IMG/VR virus record: IMGVR_UViG_3300032080_000002
Span: 24,330-88,329 of that record
DNA: 64,000 bases
Strand: one strand, 5' to 3'
Origin: a virus
Shown here: positions 3,995 through 42,563 of the stretch, piece by piece
Position numbering within the stretch: the stretch's first letter is position 1
Layout: each line of letters starts with the position of its first letter
Translations under genes and position numbers: made by a program
Notes under the pieces: model-generated
The model's input: only the letters and a program-made list of their open reading frames with translations
The model's database searches: none
Told to the model about the DNA's origin: nothing

Positions 3995-6400
3995 TTATAT
4001 TGTATTTGATAAACTCATTTCAGGAACTTCGGATTCTCTAATATCCGATATTTCCCCTCTACGAAGTTTGATTAGTTTCTCTTGATCGTTTGCGCTTTCG
4101 TTGATTCCTTTGATTCTAATTTCCTCGTCTCTGTCTTTTTTATACTGAGTCTGAGTCGCTTCAAATTCCATTCTCATTTGTTCTAGTCTCGCTTTGAATG
4201 AAGTTCTTTCTTGTTCTGTTTGGAGTTTTAATAATCCCTCGGCTTCCAAAATTTTCATCTGAGAATTAAAATCAATTTCTTTTTGTCTCAGTTTTAAATC
4301 AGCTTCTAATTGGATTGTAATTCTTTTCTCTTCATTAGAAATTCTTGATGCCTGGATATTTCCGTTATTGGCTTCCTGAATTTTTTGCATTTCCAAATCC
4401 TGATTCTCTTTTTTACGCTTATCTATTTTAAGTCTCAAAGTTCTCAGTGCAACTTTCTTGTTTCGGATATTCAGAATTTCTTCACCATCCAAAGGATCTA
4501 TAACTCCCTGAGTAACGTAAGTGTTAATATTCTGAATCAAAGCCATTCTCTCTTGTCTTGTCGGAACGTAGTCTTGGTATATTCCGAAATAATGTGATGA
4601 TCTATTTTTATATTTTTCCAGAATCTCTACATCATCTGTGCCAATCATATCAATATACTTGTCTCTGATATTACTCCATTTGAAAATATCATTAATTCTT
4701 GAACTTACAACTTGGAAAACTAATATTGACCACGTATGTAAAGCATCGCTGTAATCCTTCATTTGAGTGTTGTCCGACAATCTGTAAGGCTCAACATCAA
4801 ACAATGTTTTATTATCTGGCTTAGCCTGATCAAACCCTAAATAACCAAACGATTCATCAAGTAATTTTATATCTTCCACAAACTGAATCATTAATGCTTG
4901 AAGCGCATAAGGAATTCCTGTGGGTATTTCAGATAATGCTCTATTTCCTTGTGTTGGCTCTCCGTCTTCATCCAATGTTTTTCTGAATGCAATATCCAAA
5001 GAAAAGTAAAATGATAACACTTCTTCCGGAGTAAGTTTTTTATTGCCCAACGAAATGTTCGCGATCATATCCGGATCTATTTCAGAAATAATTCCACGTA
5101 GTTTATTTCGTTGGTGTAGGATTCTGTATCTCAACTCCTGAATAGAGTCTACTCTTCCTTTAACTTCTTCTACAATAGAATTGTATCCTTCATCTGTAAT
5201 ACGTGGCGCAAATGGGATGTATGGTGGCAGAATGTTTCCTTTATACTCTGGCATATTATCCATTAATCTATGTCTGATTACTTTTCTTTCGCCACTAAGC
5301 ACCATAATGCCTTCATACCAAACATTCCAATTTGAATCTATTTTTTCTGAAACATCTGATTTGTAATTGGGATCAGGTTTATATTCCTTTGGTGTGCCAA
5401 TGTCACTTGTCCTATCTATAATTTTTACAGCGTTTGTTTTTCTATCAACTTTCTTTTTAAATACAGATTGATGAAATGTTTCAAAGTTATAATAAAGAAC
5501 TCTAATCAAAGTTTTATTATCATCAATATCATCAGCAATAGTTGCGTTTACCATTTTCTGAATATCGTCATCAGTCAAAGTTATTTTAGAAGCTTTTGCA
5601 ATATTTTTTATTTGAGATATTGTAATTAGTCTTTCTTCGCCAAAATAACTACAGTCGCTAAAATATGGATCATTTGTTTTTGAGTGAATAAAGTTTTCAG
5701 GTCTTACCCATCTAATTTTAATTCCTTCGACTTTACATGTCTCAACGGCAGCTACAGCAAGTCCGCATTCTACTGCATCCTTTAAGGCTTTCTTCTGTGT
5801 TGAGTTAAATTTATTTTCATGGGAAACTGATTGTAAAACTAATTCTTCTGCAGTCTCAATTGATAATGGTTGTTCTGTTAATTCTTCAAGTTCAACTTGT
5901 TCTTGTGATTCCGGAATTTGTTCTGCAGGAATGTCTGTAAAGCCTCCATTAATTTGAGCCATCTGTTGAATGAAGTCTTTTGCATAAAACAAATCCATCT
6001 TCTCATTCTTCCTTGCAGACTTTTCTTCTCTAGCTGTTGGATCTAAAGCATAAACAGAAGGTGAAAACTCCTTCATGTCAACACTATTGTAAACCTTTCT
6101 TAAAAGCCTTGGAAGTAGATTTAATTTATCTTCCCAATCTATATGCAGGAATTCGTCGCTAATATATCTACGCTTGATATTTTTCTTACATCTATCAATG
6201 GGTTGTTTACCGACAGCGTACAATCGATTTTCTTTAAATGTCTGTTTGTTTCTGTCAAGTTTATTTGCCCATTCGCTCCAAATAGCTTCGGCATACTTTT
6301 TCCCAAAGTCAAAAGAATCTTTCTCTTCGTTGGAAACTAATTCGTTTGGATAATTGTAACTGTTTATCATGTTATTAATTTGCGACTTTAAATAAATCAA
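3995..6400 (-). CDS. Portal protein
   Basis: An 801-aa protein forming the dodecameric DNA entry port of the head. It has an N-terminal helical region, a stem-type segment (VRPENFIHSKTNDPYFSDCSYFGEE) that resembles the wing region of large portals, and a long charged coiled coil at about residues 650-780. Its start overlaps the end of the TerL gene by 26 bases, the usual pairing of packaging genes. Size and layout match the large portals of crAss-like podoviruses. The Glu/Gln-rich C-terminal coil may be a barrel reaching into the capsid. The family call is made from overall pattern and context, without a search. Confidence 0.8.
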   Translation of the reverse strand: MIYLKSQINNMINSYNYPNELVSNEEKDSFDFGKKYAEAIWSEWANKLDRNKQTFKENRLYAVGKQPIDRCKKNIKRRYISDEFLHIDWEDKLNLLPRLLRKVYNSVDMKEFSPSVYALDPTAREEKSARKNEKMDLFYAKDFIQQMAQINGGFTDIPAEQIPESQEQVELEELTEQPLSIETAEELVLQSVSHENKFNSTQKKALKDAVECGLAVAAVETCKVEGIKIRWVRPENFIHSKTNDPYFSDCSYFGEERLITISQIKNIAKASKITLTDDDIQKMVNATIADDIDDNKTLIRVLYYNFETFHQSVFKKKVDRKTNAVKIIDRTSDIGTPKEYKPDPNYKSDVSEKIDSNWNVWYEGIMVLSGERKVIRHRLMDNMPEYKGNILPPYIPFAPRITDEGYNSIVEEVKGRVDSIQELRYRILHQRNKLRGIISEIDPDMIANISLGNKKLTPEEVLSFYFSLDIAFRKTLDEDGEPTQGNRALSEIPTGIPYALQALMIQFVEDIKLLDESFGYLGFDQAKPDNKTLFDVEPYRLSDNTQMKDYSDALHTWSILVFQVVSSRINDIFKWSNIRDKYIDMIGTDDVEILEKYKNRSSHYFGIYQDYVPTRQERMALIQNINTYVTQGVIDPLDGEEILNIRNKKVALRTLRLKIDKRKKENQDLEMQKIQEANNGNIQASRISNEEKRITIQLEADLKLRQKEIDFNSQMKILEAEGLLKLQTEQERTSFKARLEQMRMEFEATQTQYKKDRDEEIRIKGINESANDQEKLIKLRRGEISDIRESEVPEMSLSNTI

Positions 6401-8636
6401 ATATTTCTATGTTAGTAATTGTCTCTTCTGTTTTAGGCTGTCTCTTTCTATACTTGGTTGTATTGGCTAAGACCGCTAATTGTAAAGCCACGGTACTATC
6501 ACATTTCTTCCTAATATCGCCTGTGTATATTTGGAGTTCTTCTAATAATTTTAGATAAGGAATTTTCATATCATCTTCATCTACATCATCATTAATATTT
6601 TCAAAGATAAAGGTTTTTAATGATTCTTCCTGATAAGGAACAGTTGCCGGTGAAGAATAAATTCCTCCATACTTTTTACCATCATTCGACAATTCTGATT
6701 TAAGTTTGGTCGGATCTTCTAAAACGTAACCTCTATAACCTCTTTTATAAAGCGTAGTCACTAATTTATCTTTGTTAGTTTCGGGTAAAACCGGCATAGA
6801 AAAATAAACCATTGCTTTAATTACATCATCGATTGCTTCTTCAATTGTGTTCGGTCTGTGATTATAGTATAAAAATACTTTATTTCTTTCATTCTCCGCA
6901 AGTAAAAATTCATTATTTTTTGTAACTCCAACGAATCCCTGATTTGAACCGGTTCCATATTTTGCTCTGTCTGATTGATATGGATCGACACCGAATGCTC
7001 CAAGATCAGTATTCACAGGACAACGTCTACCTCCGTCTTTTACGTTAACCTGATTTCTAAATTCAACTAATGGCATCCATGAAGATTGAAATCTACCATT
7101 TTTTGATCTTTTCATTTCTACTCCTTCCGGATTATCTTGAATTCCGTTCTTCCAAAATAAATCAAATCTTGTCACTAATAATTCGTACTTAGGATTCTTT
7201 TCAAAAGTCTTTAGGAAGTTTGCGTGATTGGTAACACCTTCTGTTCCGTACATACTGCTTGCATCTTCATCTAAGAATGCATCGGTGTCTACTCTTGGGT
7301 TGTTACGTTTCTGAGCATTTAGTTTCTTTTGATTGCCGGCACAGGCAGATTCTTTTGAATCTAAATATTGTTTTGCACCAATAGTCACTGTTGTTCCTCT
7401 TTCATTTGCTATTTCTAATCCATCTGGATTATCATAGATTACCCATCCATATTCATCAAAGAAACCTCTTGTTGAATAATCTGCAGGAATAAATATTGCG
7501 TATAATCCGGTACTCGTTTGACCAATATCATTTCTGTTATTTGTCTTTGAGTTTGTATAAAATTCCTCGTAGTTCTTTCCCCCTTTATTTGGTGGATTGG
7601 CTGTTGATCCGCAAATTGCTTTTCCTACAATATCCGAACCTACCTCATGTGTCATTTTGTGAGCTTGTTCCCAATACTCATTAATGTCGAGATTACCTTT
7701 AAATTTTCCAATCTCGTCATTTCCAGATAATGTTACCTCCGATCCATCATAAGCATCGACTGTTGTTGCTAATGGCTCTATATAAGTATCAAGTCCTGTA
7801 TCATCCGTGGAAGATTTATTATTAAGTGTAATTTTCTTCTGAGGGGAGTTGAATTCTAATTTAGATTTTGGTTTAGCTTCACCGGTTCTTTGTGGCTGTA
7901 GATGTTTTGGGAATTTAAGAAATGGTCTTACAATGTGTTTTGTAAATAAATTCTTGGCATCACCATCAGTTTTAGAAACAATTGGATAATAACCTTGTCT
8001 CTTTGTGATTGAACTCCGTAGCATTTCACTTGCCAAAGTAACAGTGAAAGAAGATCTTCTTCCTTTTAGCATGAGACTGCCATAGCATCTATTATCAGCA
8101 TAACAAGCTTCTAGAAATATAAAATAATCTCGTTGTGTAATCCTGAAATCCGGAAATTTACCATCAGTTAAAGTATAGTGTTGAAGGAAGAAATAATATC
8201 CTCCTGGAATATAAATTACTTCACCATCGATATAAATGAATTCACCTTCAAACTTTCTCTTGATATCAGCATCAATAAATGATTTATTATTATTGAATAC
8301 AGAAACAATTATACTATCTTTATTTGATTCGTCGGTATTGTTTTTATCGAAGTTAGCAAGTTGTTTAGGTACATCGTACCGTTTCCATTTCTGAAACTTA
8401 GCTTGTAGATTATATCCTCTTGCTTGTTTAGGTGCTTTAGGAAGTCCTATTTTGAGATTTTCTATTTCTACGATCTGACCTAATGTACCGTCTTTTGAAA
8501 TTATAATTAAATCATATTCTTTATTGTATCCGTATTTCCATGACAATTTTTTATTACCTTCCTCGATTACATCTTCTGAGATATAATCATTTAAAATAGT
8601 ATGTAGACTTCTTCTATATTTTTTTTCAGACTGCAT
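6375..8636 (-). CDS. terL: Terminase large subunit
   Basis: A 753-aa packaging motor and headful nuclease. A degenerate Walker A-like segment KGRRSSFT sits at about residues 191-198, lacking the usual GKT, as in some divergent terminases. A Walker B-like TLSGNDEIG at about 302-310 is followed by the coupling motif GSTAN at 343-347. The nuclease half begins with a beta strand ending in Asp (GAFGVDPYQSDR, D551), as expected for an RNase H-like fold. Neighbours are the portal (overlap 26 bases) and a candidate small subunit (overlap 11). The family call is strong; closeness to crAss-like TerL is inference. Confidence 0.88.
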   Translation of the reverse strand: MQSEKKYRRSLHTILNDYISEDVIEEGNKKLSWKYGYNKEYDLIIISKDGTLGQIVEIENLKIGLPKAPKQARGYNLQAKFQKWKRYDVPKQLANFDKNNTDESNKDSIIVSVFNNNKSFIDADIKRKFEGEFIYIDGEVIYIPGGYYFFLQHYTLTDGKFPDFRITQRDYFIFLEACYADNRCYGSLMLKGRRSSFTVTLASEMLRSSITKRQGYYPIVSKTDGDAKNLFTKHIVRPFLKFPKHLQPQRTGEAKPKSKLEFNSPQKKITLNNKSSTDDTGLDTYIEPLATTVDAYDGSEVTLSGNDEIGKFKGNLDINEYWEQAHKMTHEVGSDIVGKAICGSTANPPNKGGKNYEEFYTNSKTNNRNDIGQTSTGLYAIFIPADYSTRGFFDEYGWVIYDNPDGLEIANERGTTVTIGAKQYLDSKESACAGNQKKLNAQKRNNPRVDTDAFLDEDASSMYGTEGVTNHANFLKTFEKNPKYELLVTRFDLFWKNGIQDNPEGVEMKRSKNGRFQSSWMPLVEFRNQVNVKDGGRRCPVNTDLGAFGVDPYQSDRAKYGTGSNQGFVGVTKNNEFLLAENERNKVFLYYNHRPNTIEEAIDDVIKAMVYFSMPVLPETNKDKLVTTLYKRGYRGYVLEDPTKLKSELSNDGKKYGGIYSSPATVPYQEESLKTFIFENINDDVDEDDMKIPYLKLLEELQIYTGDIRKKCDSTVALQLAVLANTTKYRKRQPKTEETITNIEIFDLFKVAN

Positions 8637-39076: not shown

Positions 39077-39331
39077 CTATTGTTTAAATTCCGGAAGTGT
39101 TCCTAAATACCAAAACTTATTATCATCTTCTATAAATGTGAGATAGTAATATGTTCCTGCAATTTCATATGATGATTCTCCTACTTGTAATATTCCTGCA
39201 TCTAAATACCTAGGCTGAACTACATCCATAAAATAATTATACATTTCTTCATCAATCTCACAAGGAAATTTACCTAAATACTGATCTAATTCTTGGGATA
39301 AATTCATTTCCCAATCGATAAATTTTTTCAT
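39077..39331 (-). CDS. Hypothetical 84-aa acidic early protein
   Basis: An acidic protein, helical then beta (EIAGTYYYLTFIEDDNKFWYL). It directly precedes, in transcription order follows, the nuclease-FtsK gene with a 2-base gap, so it could regulate or cap that enzyme. It is negatively charged like DNA mimics, but this is only a compositional hint. Confidence 0.65.
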   Translation of the reverse strand: MKKFIDWEMNLSQELDQYLGKFPCEIDEEMYNYFMDVVQPRYLDAGILQVGESSYEIAGTYYYLTFIEDDNKFWYLGTLPEFKQ

Positions 39332-39333
39332 AA

Positions 39334-41331
39334 TTAATCAGGCTTATAAAATGATTGAAATCTTTGAATTCCCAAGTAGTCGGCTGAACTAAACAAACAA
39401 TCGCCACTTCCTGCTAATAACTCTGCTCCGTCTTCACCCAACATTACTTTACTGTCTACGGCTTTCGGAACTCTCAAGCATGTAATAACACTTAGATTTA
39501 CTTTCATGTCACCCTCTATCACTTTGACAGATGCTCTTTGTGTCGCTGCTAAAACTCTGAATCCAGAAGAACGCCCTTTTTGTAGTATTCTTTTTAGATT
39601 GTTTGAAAGCTCACTTTTTTTACCTGCTGATGCTACTGCATCTGCGAATTCGTCAAATACAATGAGGACTTTTGAATTGTTTTTTGACTTAACTTTCTGT
39701 TCCATTTTTTCAACTAACATTTCCATCATTACCTCAATATCTTCAATGTCATTTAAAACTTCAACACCATGATCTCTCATTCCTTCAAATTCCAGTTTTG
39801 GATCAAAGCAATAAATTTCTTTTACTCCCGCTTCGATAGCATAATGCATAATACTATTGATATAAACCGATTTTCCTGCCCCTGATGCGCCTCCAACTAA
39901 ATGATGTACTGCAGAATTTGATTCCAAATCCCAATAAAGCGTAGTTCCCATATTATCTTTTCCTAGAGGAATTTTAAATCCATTTAGTTCGGCTTTATCC
40001 CATAGTAAATCTTTGGTTCTTTTCTTAGAGGTTTCGATCTGTAAGTATGATTTTCCTTCGTAAACTGTAAGGTTGTTTGGGATTCTTACATTGGCTACAT
40101 TCAACTGATTGGCAATATCTAACTTAAATTTTTGTACAGCACCAACCTTTACTCCTGCGCCAATTTCTAAAAGATAAGTGTCTGAACTGAAGCCATCAAA
40201 AATTTTAGCTACGGAAACTTGCATTCCAAAAGATCTTAGTACATGCTCTATTTTCTGTTCTGGGGTTTTATCTGACATGTCGTATTGTATAAATTTACTT
40301 GCGTTTTTAATGAATGTTTTAATTACTGTCGGGTTTATTGCTGTAGCCGATGCATCTTTAATTTTCTTGGTTCTCTTTTCAATTAAGTCAAGCTTAGTGT
40401 CTTCGATATTAAATTCGGCATCAATCTCTCCAAGCCTCGTCTTGGCATCAAAAGCATAAATCTCAGCTATGTCTACGAAATTATCAGCATCATTGATCAG
40501 GTAATCGTAATCGGGGTCACTCACTGCCTTTAATAGAGCTTTCAATGGAGTGTATAAATATGCTTCGTATAATTTTAAAACATCTTTGGTAATCTCAATC
40601 TTTGAAATTTGTATCTGCGGAGACTTATCTTTGTTTGTTGAATGTTTATTTTCAGCAAACCAAAATTCATCTAGCAGGACTCCTTTCATTGATTCGTAGG
40701 CTTTAACATATATGCAACTCTGTTTTCCGGAAGTCAACACCAATTCTTTTTCGTCGGTGTATGTCGCTTTTGATTTATGGTCAATCCCGACAATCTTTCC
40801 TGTTTTAGTTTTTACGATTAAGTCAATCTTTCCATTAAATTTTATAGGCACGTCAACGCCGTTTATTGTCAGGAATTCGCTAAAGAAAAGTTCAACTTCA
40901 ATAATCTCGTCAATTTCATCCAGGTAAACACCGATTTCTCTAAAGAAGTTTCCGATCAGTTTTATACTTACATCATTTGCTTTTAATTTGCATTCCTCAA
41001 TAGTTGGCGTAGTCTTTTGGATTTTCCATTCACTTGCCGGCTGTTCGTCGATATAATTGAAAGCTAAAGTTTCCAAATCAACTATGGATAATTCTGTTCC
41101 TTCTTTTTTATTCTTGAAGTACATTTCCAAAGCGTAGTGATAAGCTTGTCCTGCTACGGTTGTAGAAGAGTTTTTCTGTCTATAACCGTACACGTATAGC
41201 ATTTCAAAGGCTTTTTGATTTCTTGAATATTGTGAAATCTTCGAATAACTCAGTGCTGAGATTAAAAAAAGCGAATCAATTAACTGTAACTCTTCGGGAG
41301 TTTTTAATTTGTATTCGTGTATATGGCTCAT
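39334..41331 (-). CDS. PD-(D/E)XK nuclease fused to FtsK-type DNA translocase
   Basis: A 665-aa two-part enzyme. Residues 28-225 form a RecB/Cas4-like PD-(D/E)XK nuclease: GQAYHYALE (61-69), D170 in GKIDLIV, D184-x-K186 in VGIDHKS, and Q204. Residues about 345-445 match the FtsK alpha/beta domain (GAGVKVGAVQKFKLDIANQL). Residues 470-665 are an FtsK motor: Walker A GGASGAGKS (480-488), PKLEFEG (511-517), Walker B VLIVFDEFAD (555-564), ATQRASVKVI (596-605). No gamma DNA-reading domain is present. It likely moves along duplex DNA while cutting. The upstream neighbour but one is a probable annealing protein, suggesting recombination or genome maturation. Confidence 0.9.
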   Translation of the reverse strand: MSHIHEYKLKTPEELQLIDSLFLISALSYSKISQYSRNQKAFEMLYVYGYRQKNSSTTVAGQAYHYALEMYFKNKKEGTELSIVDLETLAFNYIDEQPASEWKIQKTTPTIEECKLKANDVSIKLIGNFFREIGVYLDEIDEIIEVELFFSEFLTINGVDVPIKFNGKIDLIVKTKTGKIVGIDHKSKATYTDEKELVLTSGKQSCIYVKAYESMKGVLLDEFWFAENKHSTNKDKSPQIQISKIEITKDVLKLYEAYLYTPLKALLKAVSDPDYDYLINDADNFVDIAEIYAFDAKTRLGEIDAEFNIEDTKLDLIEKRTKKIKDASATAINPTVIKTFIKNASKFIQYDMSDKTPEQKIEHVLRSFGMQVSVAKIFDGFSSDTYLLEIGAGVKVGAVQKFKLDIANQLNVANVRIPNNLTVYEGKSYLQIETSKKRTKDLLWDKAELNGFKIPLGKDNMGTTLYWDLESNSAVHHLVGGASGAGKSVYINSIMHYAIEAGVKEIYCFDPKLEFEGMRDHGVEVLNDIEDIEVMMEMLVEKMEQKVKSKNNSKVLIVFDEFADAVASAGKKSELSNNLKRILQKGRSSGFRVLAATQRASVKVIEGDMKVNLSVITCLRVPKAVDSKVMLGEDGAELLAGSGDCLFSSADYLGIQRFQSFYKPD

Positions 41332-41498
41332 TTATCTTCTGATTTATAAGAAATAAATAAAAATATAACACTGATACAAAAGAAAAATATGCTTAAAAAT
41401 CTAAATCCTTTATCTGGGCTGTAAAGATATGCTTCTAAAACCATAAATCCTGAAAATAATGAACACATTAAAAATAATGTTGGATAAAAGTATTTCAT
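41328..41498 (-). CDS. 56-aa two-helix membrane microprotein
   Basis: Runs from ATG 41498 to a TGA that overlaps the nuclease-FtsK start (ATGA). Two hydrophobic segments (YPTLFLMCSLFSGFMVLEAY and FLSIFFFCISVIFLFIS) flank a short charged loop. Coupled overlap with a major gene supports it as real. Function unknown; inner-membrane protein. Confidence 0.6.
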   Translation of the reverse strand: MKYFYPTLFLMCSLFSGFMVLEAYLYSPDKGFRFLSIFFFCISVIFLFISYKSEDK

Positions 41499-41499
41499 A

Positions 41500-42345
41500 T
41501 TACGGCATTTTATCTGTTGGATTTACTTTTTCTACTTCTGGGTTAATGGCATCTTTATTCGCTTTCATTTCTGCTTTCTTATTTTCGGTTGCAGTCTCAT
41601 TTGGGCTAAACATTTCTTCAACTGTACTTTCGTTATTTTTTAGTGCAGTAGCCATTGTTCTCAAAGTAAACAATTTCTCCAAGTCAATATCTTCCACTCT
41701 TTTAATCTCTAAAATGTCACATATTTGCTTGTCTTTAACGCCTTTTCCTTTGAAGAATTCAAGTGCTTCTTGTCTTTTTACCGGAAGAGATTTTTCATCA
41801 CCTTTGATAAGTTTTTTGGCTGCATCATAAATTGGGCTTACTAATGCCGCAGGAACAACTTTAAGTACTGCATTTCTGTAGGCAATTGCACATGCTGCAT
41901 TTCCTGCTACTACTTGCATGTCTTCATTGAAAGTTCTTCCGTTTCTGTCTGTAATTTTTCTCTTTACTTCAACGGTAATCGAGTTATTGGTTTCCAGGTC
42001 ATGGCAAATCCCCTGAGCGGTAATTGTTTTTCCATCATTTGCAATGACTCTCGCTCCTGATCTGATGTTTCCATAGCTTGCAGTTACAATTTCCGCTAAT
42101 CTTACTGATGCGCCTTCCAGATTCTTGCCGCCTCTTGGCAATGAATATATGCATGATTCAGCAATTCCTTCGCTTAATGTAACCATTGAGGTTGCTTTGT
42201 CAATAAAGTTCTTTAAACTCCTTGGGAACGCCTTCGCTGTAGAAATCTGCATATCAATTTCCGCTTTGGTAATAAGTGATAAAGCATCCTGTCCTACAAC
42301 TTGTACTTCTGTAACTTGAGTTTCTGTATTTTGAATTTCGTTCAT
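41500..42345 (-). CDS. Probable single-strand annealing (recombination) protein
   Basis: A 281-aa protein. The core ASVRLAEIVTASYGNIRSGARVI, GKTITAQGICHDLETN, VEVKRKITDRNGRTF and VVAGNAACAIAYRNAVLKVVP matches a family widely found in phages beside recombination nucleases, in the position taken by RecT/Erf-type annealases. The last 70 residues are a charged tail. Located beside the PD-(D/E)XK-FtsK gene (one microprotein between), it could form a two-part recombination system. The family role is inferred from context and remembered pattern; a direct RecT or Erf signature was not confirmed. Confidence 0.65.
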   Translation of the reverse strand: MNEIQNTETQVTEVQVVGQDALSLITKAEIDMQISTAKAFPRSLKNFIDKATSMVTLSEGIAESCIYSLPRGGKNLEGASVRLAEIVTASYGNIRSGARVIANDGKTITAQGICHDLETNNSITVEVKRKITDRNGRTFNEDMQVVAGNAACAIAYRNAVLKVVPAALVSPIYDAAKKLIKGDEKSLPVKRQEALEFFKGKGVKDKQICDILEIKRVEDIDLEKLFTLRTMATALKNNESTVEEMFSPNETATENKKAEMKANKDAINPEVEKVNPTDKMP

Positions 42346-42347
42346 TT

Positions 42348-42563
42348 CTATTTTTTTGTATTTAACTTTTTTATTATTGCGCTGTCAATCGATTCAAATT
42401 TCTGCCGATTGTTTATTACAACTGCTTTTTTCGCTGAATCAAGATACGGATTTATATCTTTATGTTCACGAATTTGGCTGAGTAATTTACCTATTTTATC
42501 CGCTAATTCTTTGTCTGATTTAGCATTTACTGAAATTGATATGGTGGTCAAATAATACGCCAT
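42348..42563 (-). CDS. Hypothetical 71-aa early protein
   Basis: A basic, helical protein (KSDKELADKIGKLLSQIREH) with a short beta start (YYLTTISISVN). Two bases separate it from each neighbour. Possibly a DNA-binding accessory to the annealing protein; not recognised. Confidence 0.6.
   Translation of the reverse strand: MAYYLTTISISVNAKSDKELADKIGKLLSQIREHKDINPYLDSAKKAVVINNRQKFESIDSAIIKKLNTKK

Follow-up and report, generated by a model that had tools for sequence, protein, structure and literature searches.

The window analysed here, a stretch of 64,000 nucleotides that forms part of an 88,329-base IMG/VR virus record, contains a locus that probably encodes a Red/RecET-type phage recombinase of two components. 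In this reading, a RecB-type nuclease joined in one chain to an FtsK double-stranded DNA translocase (P0001) stands in the slot of the exonuclease, and the annealase (P0002) would be docked on this fusion by its C-terminal tail. The fusion itself, its invariant catalytic sites, its co-location with an annealase gene, the swapping of that partner and the association of the tail with the fusion can be read directly from the sequences of the window and its relatives. In the literature, of which our survey covered a part, we found no report of such a nuclease-FtsK fusion or of a tail shared among annealases.

Results

A RecB/Cas4-type nuclease domain and an FtsK motor in one chain

P0001 is encoded in a single unbroken minus-strand frame (Table 1), which the original prediction had read as a nuclease core followed by an FtsK motor with alpha and beta domains but no gamma domain. 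Profile searches of each half, structure prediction and a comparison with relatives all bear this reading out. PDDEXK_1 (residues 27-228, E 9.5e-13) matches the N-terminal half, and FtsK_alpha and FtsK_SpoIIIE (from residue 451, E 3.2e-14) match the C-terminal half, all three above the Pfam cut-off; a Pfam search for the gamma winged-helix domain gave no match at E ≤ 1, and the chain ends right behind the motor. PHROGs splits the protein into two families, exonuclease (phrog_1218, phrog_69) and FtsK-like (phrog_1358), and no single model in Pfam, PHROGs or NCBIfam covers both halves. Among the Pfam and PHROGs exonuclease profiles, those of the YqaJ/lambda-Exo and RecE types do not recognise P0001, which matches only PDDEXK_1 and phrog_1218/69. 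Pfam likewise gave no match to NurA, and HerA (DUF87) scores under its cut-off (16.6 versus 23.2 bits); in the fusions of two other loci (L003 and L017) HerA lies above the cut-off, with FtsK_alpha present there too.

Table 1. Features of the nuclease-motor fusion and its annealase neighbour, in window coordinates
Feature	Position	Strand	Evidence
PD-(D/E)XK nuclease-FtsK motor fusion, P0001, 665 aa	39334..41331	(-)	frame, profiles, predicted fold, invariant sites
RecB/Cas4-type PD-(D/E)XK nuclease domain (predicted activity), residues 27-228	40648..41253	(-)	PF12705 (PDDEXK_1), phrog_1218 exonuclease, Foldseek Dna2/Cas4/AdnAB
Putative catalytic core D170, D184-x-K186, Q204; QxxxY reaching Y208 just downstream	40720..40824	(-)	conservation
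Flexible linker between nuclease and motor, residues 331-350	40282..40341	(-)	low-confidence part of AlphaFold2 model
FtsK alpha domain, residues 355-433	40033..40269	(-)	PF17854, E 3.2e-8
FtsK RecA-like motor (beta) domain, residues 451-665	39337..39981	(-)	PF01580, fold, conservation
P0001 Walker A; Walker B	about 39868-39894; about 39649-39654	(-)	within motor domain
Annealase (single-strand annealing protein), P0002, 281 aa, phrog_3657 family	41500..42345	(-)	phrog_3657 (E 4e-50), context, predicted fold
Rad52-superfamily-like core, P0002 residues 44-163	41857..42216	(-)	helix, beta-hairpin, helix, three strands, long helix in model
Shared C-terminal tail NPTDKMP-COOH of P0002	41503..41523	(-)	partner comparison

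The AlphaFold2 model of P0001 (mean pLDDT 86.7) consists of two confident halves separated by the low-confidence linker, in agreement with the predicted join. Foldseek comparison of the model with the PDB relates the motor half to FtsK motors (E 1e-23) and the nuclease half to Dna2 (6e-10), Cas4-family proteins (1.3e-7) and AdnAB (1.5e-7); no iron-sulfur cysteine cluster was seen in P0001 by eye. The residues singled out in the original prediction do not vary: all 62 of the 62 aligned fusions have D170, D184, K186 and Q204. Y208 is present in 61 of the 62, and the ATPase residues G484, G486 and K487 (Walker A), E561 (Walker B), R587 and Q598/R599 are kept wherever the alignment column is filled. 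Judged from sequence and predicted fold, P0001 is a RecB/Cas4-type PD-(D/E)XK nuclease, with nuclease activity predicted, followed by the alpha and motor domains of a gamma-less FtsK.

A family carried by phages

Beyond the window, the fusion is present in about 60 viral contigs, of phages or prophages, and in one Chitinophagaceae MAG, the one named genome on which the host assignment rests. When four aligned members served as the query, 61 viral contigs were recovered, nearly all of which have the whole fusion, and the presence of an identical join in about 60 homologs rules out a frame or assembly artefact. These relatives are 44-55% identical to P0001, the exception being L002 at 85%. When P0001 is compared with L002 along its length, identity is 93% over the nuclease and alpha domains and 73% over the motor, and this switch near residue 434 (window 39334-40030) suggests a domain exchange inside the gene. 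No annotated phage in INPHARED covers 80% of P0001, the matches there spanning about half of it or less, and no plasmid record in PLSDB does so, the matches there being to the motor half only. Among 395 sampled Bacteroidota genomes the fusion was found in one, already known, as expected for a phage gene.

One fusion gene (L071:3784-6687) carries an intein-like insert of ~270 aa exactly inside Walker A, which begins with Cys, contains an HNH-like stretch and has a VHN end ahead of SGKS; a P-loop intein at this position fits an essential motor site.

The phage of the window encodes a separate terminase (6378-8636; phrog_6681, E 4.6e-105) and a portal, which rule out P0001 as the packaging motor. 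We also rejected a role in anti-phage defence or in host attack, the PADLOC matches being to generic motor ATPases and the fusion loci showing no recurrent defence neighbours. The acidic gene at 39077-39331, put forward in the original prediction as a possible regulator, exists as an ORF and has no homolog near the fusion in other loci; we therefore do not count it as part of the module.

P0002 as a candidate annealase of the phrog_3657 family

The protein encoded beside the fusion, P0002, had been guessed to be an annealase with no known family to place it in. Pfam gives no match above chance, the RecT, ERF and Sak4 profiles included, and the only profile match is to phrog_3657, a function-unknown family in PHROGs. 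An annealase is nonetheless indicated by what surrounds its relatives and by its predicted fold. Relatives in phrog_3657 without the fusion mostly have a YqaJ/RecE-type exonuclease gene after them, and in L002, the locus with the closest fusion, the slot of P0002 is held by a RecT (E 1.9e-39), to which P0002 is unrelated in sequence by BLAST. The Rad52 annealase superfamily fold runs helix, beta-hairpin, helix, three-stranded sheet, helix (PMC9870868), and the P0002 model (pLDDT 83.8) has its elements in the same order. Against the viral protein structures of BFVD the model matches ERF (4.1e-5), Rad52/59/22 (1.5e-3) and Bet (1.2e-2), all with low TM-scores, and nearly all named matches are ERF, Rad52/59/22, Bet or single-strand annealing proteins; against PDB folds the model gave nothing significant, and the family profile had no match in the PDB. 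The annealase guess for P0002 is well supported, and the predicted fold of this annealase-like family resembles Rad52 and ERF. Directly upstream of P0002 lies a 71-aa gene (window 42348-42563) that is kept at the same place in L002 (L002:6708-6923).

Unrelated annealases alternate in the gene before the fusion

Co-occurrence with the P0002 family, which the original prediction proposed to survey, holds in part: of 63 loci, 21 have a phrog_3657 gene ahead of the fusion, and elsewhere this place is taken by unrelated annealases, namely RecT in 16, Sak4-like proteins matching AAA_24/phrog_1366 in 10, ERF in 6 and a divergent RecT (phrog_561) in 2. The collections were searched with short exact patterns, and these are at least the partner classes that occur. 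A recognised annealase class is thus found upstream of the fusion in 55/63 loci. The remaining eight comprise five members of an unclassified cluster and two singletons, seven proteins with the same kind of tail (see below), and L061, in which no partner is recognisable; several of these unclassified partners are called annealases by position and tail alone. Other genes lie between annealase and fusion in L064 and L034, the intervening gene in L034 being HNH endonuclease-like, and the other neighbour families of the fusion each recur in 10 of 59 loci at most.

An annealase gene beside a nuclease gene is kept across genomes, as in Red/RecET-type modules. Away from the fusion, the same annealase families often precede a YqaJ/RecE-type exonuclease gene (profile-tested at three loci, judged by eye elsewhere), so that the fusion occupies the exonuclease slot. 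On a quick tree of the fusions, the class of annealase has switched no fewer than 26 times by parsimony. The fusions of L044 and L040 share about 98% DNA identity and have matching flanks, yet one of these loci holds a divergent RecT and the other a phrog_3657 protein. The annealase partner of the fusion is interchangeable, five recognised groups and three unclassified ones having been swapped repeatedly. Upstream of the annealase gene, L044 contains tandem repeats with a 24-bp period (L044:2606-3429), which are shorter in L040.

A C-terminal tail that accompanies the fusion

The partners share a C-terminal end, [L/M]P-COOH. With near-duplicates removed and later loci added, 51 of 64 partners end in [L/M]P and 62 of 64 have Leu or Met at position -2; in the first partner set, Leu or Met stood at -2 in 60/62 and Pro at -1 in 49/62. 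The same end is found in 7 of 1189 other ORFs of the same loci and in 0/170 members of the same families that lack the fusion: none of 13 phrog_3657 proteins, 7 RecT proteins, 55 Sak4-like proteins, 21 RecT and ERF proteins from Bacteroidota genomes (one row, L099, is probably a wrong-frame ORF) or 74 members of the unclassified cluster, three of which end in LL. Fisher's test gives p 1e-39 for the association of tail and fusion, with the rows related rather than independent. Counted as independent contrasts on supported branches, with the trees of the large control sets made by fast methods, the association recurs twice in phrog_3657, about twice in RecT, once in Sak4 and four to five times in the unclassified cluster, and there is no contrast in the opposite direction. 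P0002 offers the clearest single case of the tail tracking the fusion: it carries the tail, although its body is nested (support 99) within a group of YqaJ-linked relatives from which the tail is absent.

The tail has the character of a peptide feature, since it is retained where the two genes are separated by 47, 168, 196, 214, 523 and 1589 bp and is written with varied codons (all six Leu codons and ATG at -2, four Pro codons at the end). Two of the 64 partners lack Leu or Met at -2: L076, which ends in DLPS, and L037. The RecT gene of L037 (L037:7156-8003) contains one in-frame TAG stop, and the frame beyond it leads to KKELMRSNENKGEEMP, an end like that of the other partners, so that a tail EEMP lies hidden behind a stop that may be a mutation, a sequencing error or a recoding event. 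In L115, a Sak4-like protein ends in NLEMA and the available stretch stops 170 bp further on; the tail predicts a fusion gene past that point.

Other Bacteroidota annealases, which lack the fusion, have SSB-like ends of the DLPF or EMPF kind, as in the ERF proteins of L089, L091 and L093-L096 (YNDLPF, DEMPF, DDLPF), and SSB-like proteins encoded in the fusion loci end in DDLPF with the Phe kept. The partner tail looks like an SSB tail minus its last Phe, and may be an SSB-tail derivative that was released from SSB partners through loss of this residue. From its correlation with the fusion we infer that the tail docks the annealase on the nuclease-motor.

Discussion

Proposed mechanism

FtsK motors pump duplex DNA and do not by themselves separate strands, so resection by P0001 would need a nuclease that acts on duplex. 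The FtsK part is envisaged to assemble as a hexamer on duplex at a phage DNA end and to reel the DNA in, while the tethered nuclease would remove one strand and leave a long single-stranded tail. The annealase, kept at the exit point by its [D/E][L/M]P tail docked on the fusion, would be loaded on the emerging strand and pair it with a complementary strand, leading to recombination and concatemer formation; catalytic activity, polarity, the hexamer and physical docking are the parts of this scheme that we infer. Of the roles named in the original prediction, phage recombination with a HerA-NurA-like logic is the most plausible; the phage's own terminase and portal speak against maturation of the genome as the principal task. 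Docking would depend on a short tail whatever the fold of the annealase, so that a single nuclease-motor could serve several unrelated annealases. We are evenly divided on the wider reading of the locus as a plug-in platform, in which one nuclease-translocase captures unrelated annealases by a [D/E][L/M]P-COOH tag and phages swap the annealase while keeping the resection engine.

Alternative explanations

The recombination module could be the same and the tail could bind some other protein, such as a phage or host SSB partner, a helicase or a clamp, as its likeness to an SSB tail minus Phe, the SSB-like ends of fusion-free Bacteroidota annealases and the DDLPF ends of SSB-like proteins in the fusion loci would allow. 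We consider this unlikely, given that the tail without Phe goes with the fusion wherever a family allowed the comparison and is absent from the fusion-free controls, that the SSBs of the same phages retain their Phe and that known SSB partners require it. A further proposal, that the tail does nothing as a peptide, its codons being dictated by the start of the next gene through translational coupling or DNA homology, draws on the many annealase/fusion pairs that overlap as CCATGA or CCATAATG and on the near-identical DNA of L044 and L040, which starts just ahead of the last two annealase codons. Persistence of the tail across the wide gene gaps and varied codons described above, together with its absence from fusion-free annealases that overlap or abut an exonuclease gene, makes this proposal very unlikely.

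As regards the fusion, its FtsK part might only clamp or pair DNA ends, with no translocation during resection, and the nuclease might then behave as an ordinary exonuclease of the RecB family. The missing gamma domain and the resemblance of the nuclease domain alone to stand-alone phage exonucleases (phrog_1218) would suit such an arrangement, which nevertheless seems quite unlikely in view of Walker A, Walker B and sensor residues that are invariant in about 60 relatives and of the P-loop intein in L071. It is very unlikely that the fusion instead processes or degrades host DNA, or matures phage genomes, beside an annealase that is there by coincidence: a nuclease with a motor would suit these tasks, and in profile comparisons the motor weakly resembles defence ATPases and a terminase family, but an annealase adjoins the fusion in nearly all loci, a terminase and a portal are encoded separately by the phage, and defence systems do not recur among the neighbours.

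Relation to known systems

A tail-docked annealase working with a nuclease-translocase would be closest to lambda Red (Exo/Bet) and RecE/RecT, in which a nuclease gene likewise lies next to an annealase gene in the phage early region and whose annealase families overlap with the partners found here (RecT, ERF, Sak4-like, phrog_3657). The C-terminal domain of Red-beta binds lambda exonuclease, presumably loading the annealase on the new overhang (PMC8303780), and the C-terminal part of the annealase is the likely coupling element here too. In contrast to these systems, the nuclease of the fusion is of the RecB/Cas4 type rather than YqaJ/lambda-Exo or RecE, an FtsK motor is added, and the coupling seems to reside in a short C-terminal peptide of unrelated annealases rather than in a folded domain. 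Different annealase families of Firmicutes also have a C-terminal element in common, exchanged by domain shuffling (PMC8093625); there it is a folded HTH-like domain, whereas here it is a terminal peptide that tracks one nuclease-motor.

By analogy, the fusion may work like HerA-NurA, which also combines a double-stranded DNA translocase of the FtsK-HerA superfamily with a nuclease and produces 3' tails through translocation-coupled end resection (PMC9960219), single-stranded tails being the product expected here as well. It differs from HerA-NurA in being one chain, in having a RecB-type nuclease and not NurA, in having FtsK (alpha and beta) and not HerA, in being phage-borne and in having an annealase partner. 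RecB, AddAB, AdnAB and Dna2 belong to the same nuclease clade and likewise carry a DNA motor in the same chain, but their motor is an SF1 helicase and that of the fusion a duplex-pumping FtsK ATPase. With FtsK/SpoIIIE and the phage FtsK-like proteins (phrog_1358) the fusion has in common the alpha and motor domains, the Walker motifs and ATQR; unlike them, it has an N-terminal nuclease and neither a membrane part nor a gamma DNA-reading domain.

Implications

If the proposed mechanism is true, the locus would represent a new way of preparing DNA ends for annealing, in which a single chain combining duplex pump and nuclease takes the place of lambda Exo or RecBCD. Partner swapping provides a natural experiment on the coupling of annealase and nuclease, which limits the portability of recombineering. 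Were a handful of C-terminal residues enough, an annealase of any kind could be given the tag and combined with a processive resection engine for use in Bacteroidota, for which few tools exist. In addition, phrog_3657 is assigned a role as an annealase family, and the same role is suggested for the L056-type cluster. This widespread annealase-like family (L056:7321-8001 and L179-L258) has no Pfam or PHROG match, and its genes, judged by eye, often lie directly before YqaJ-like or metallo-beta-lactamase-like nuclease genes.
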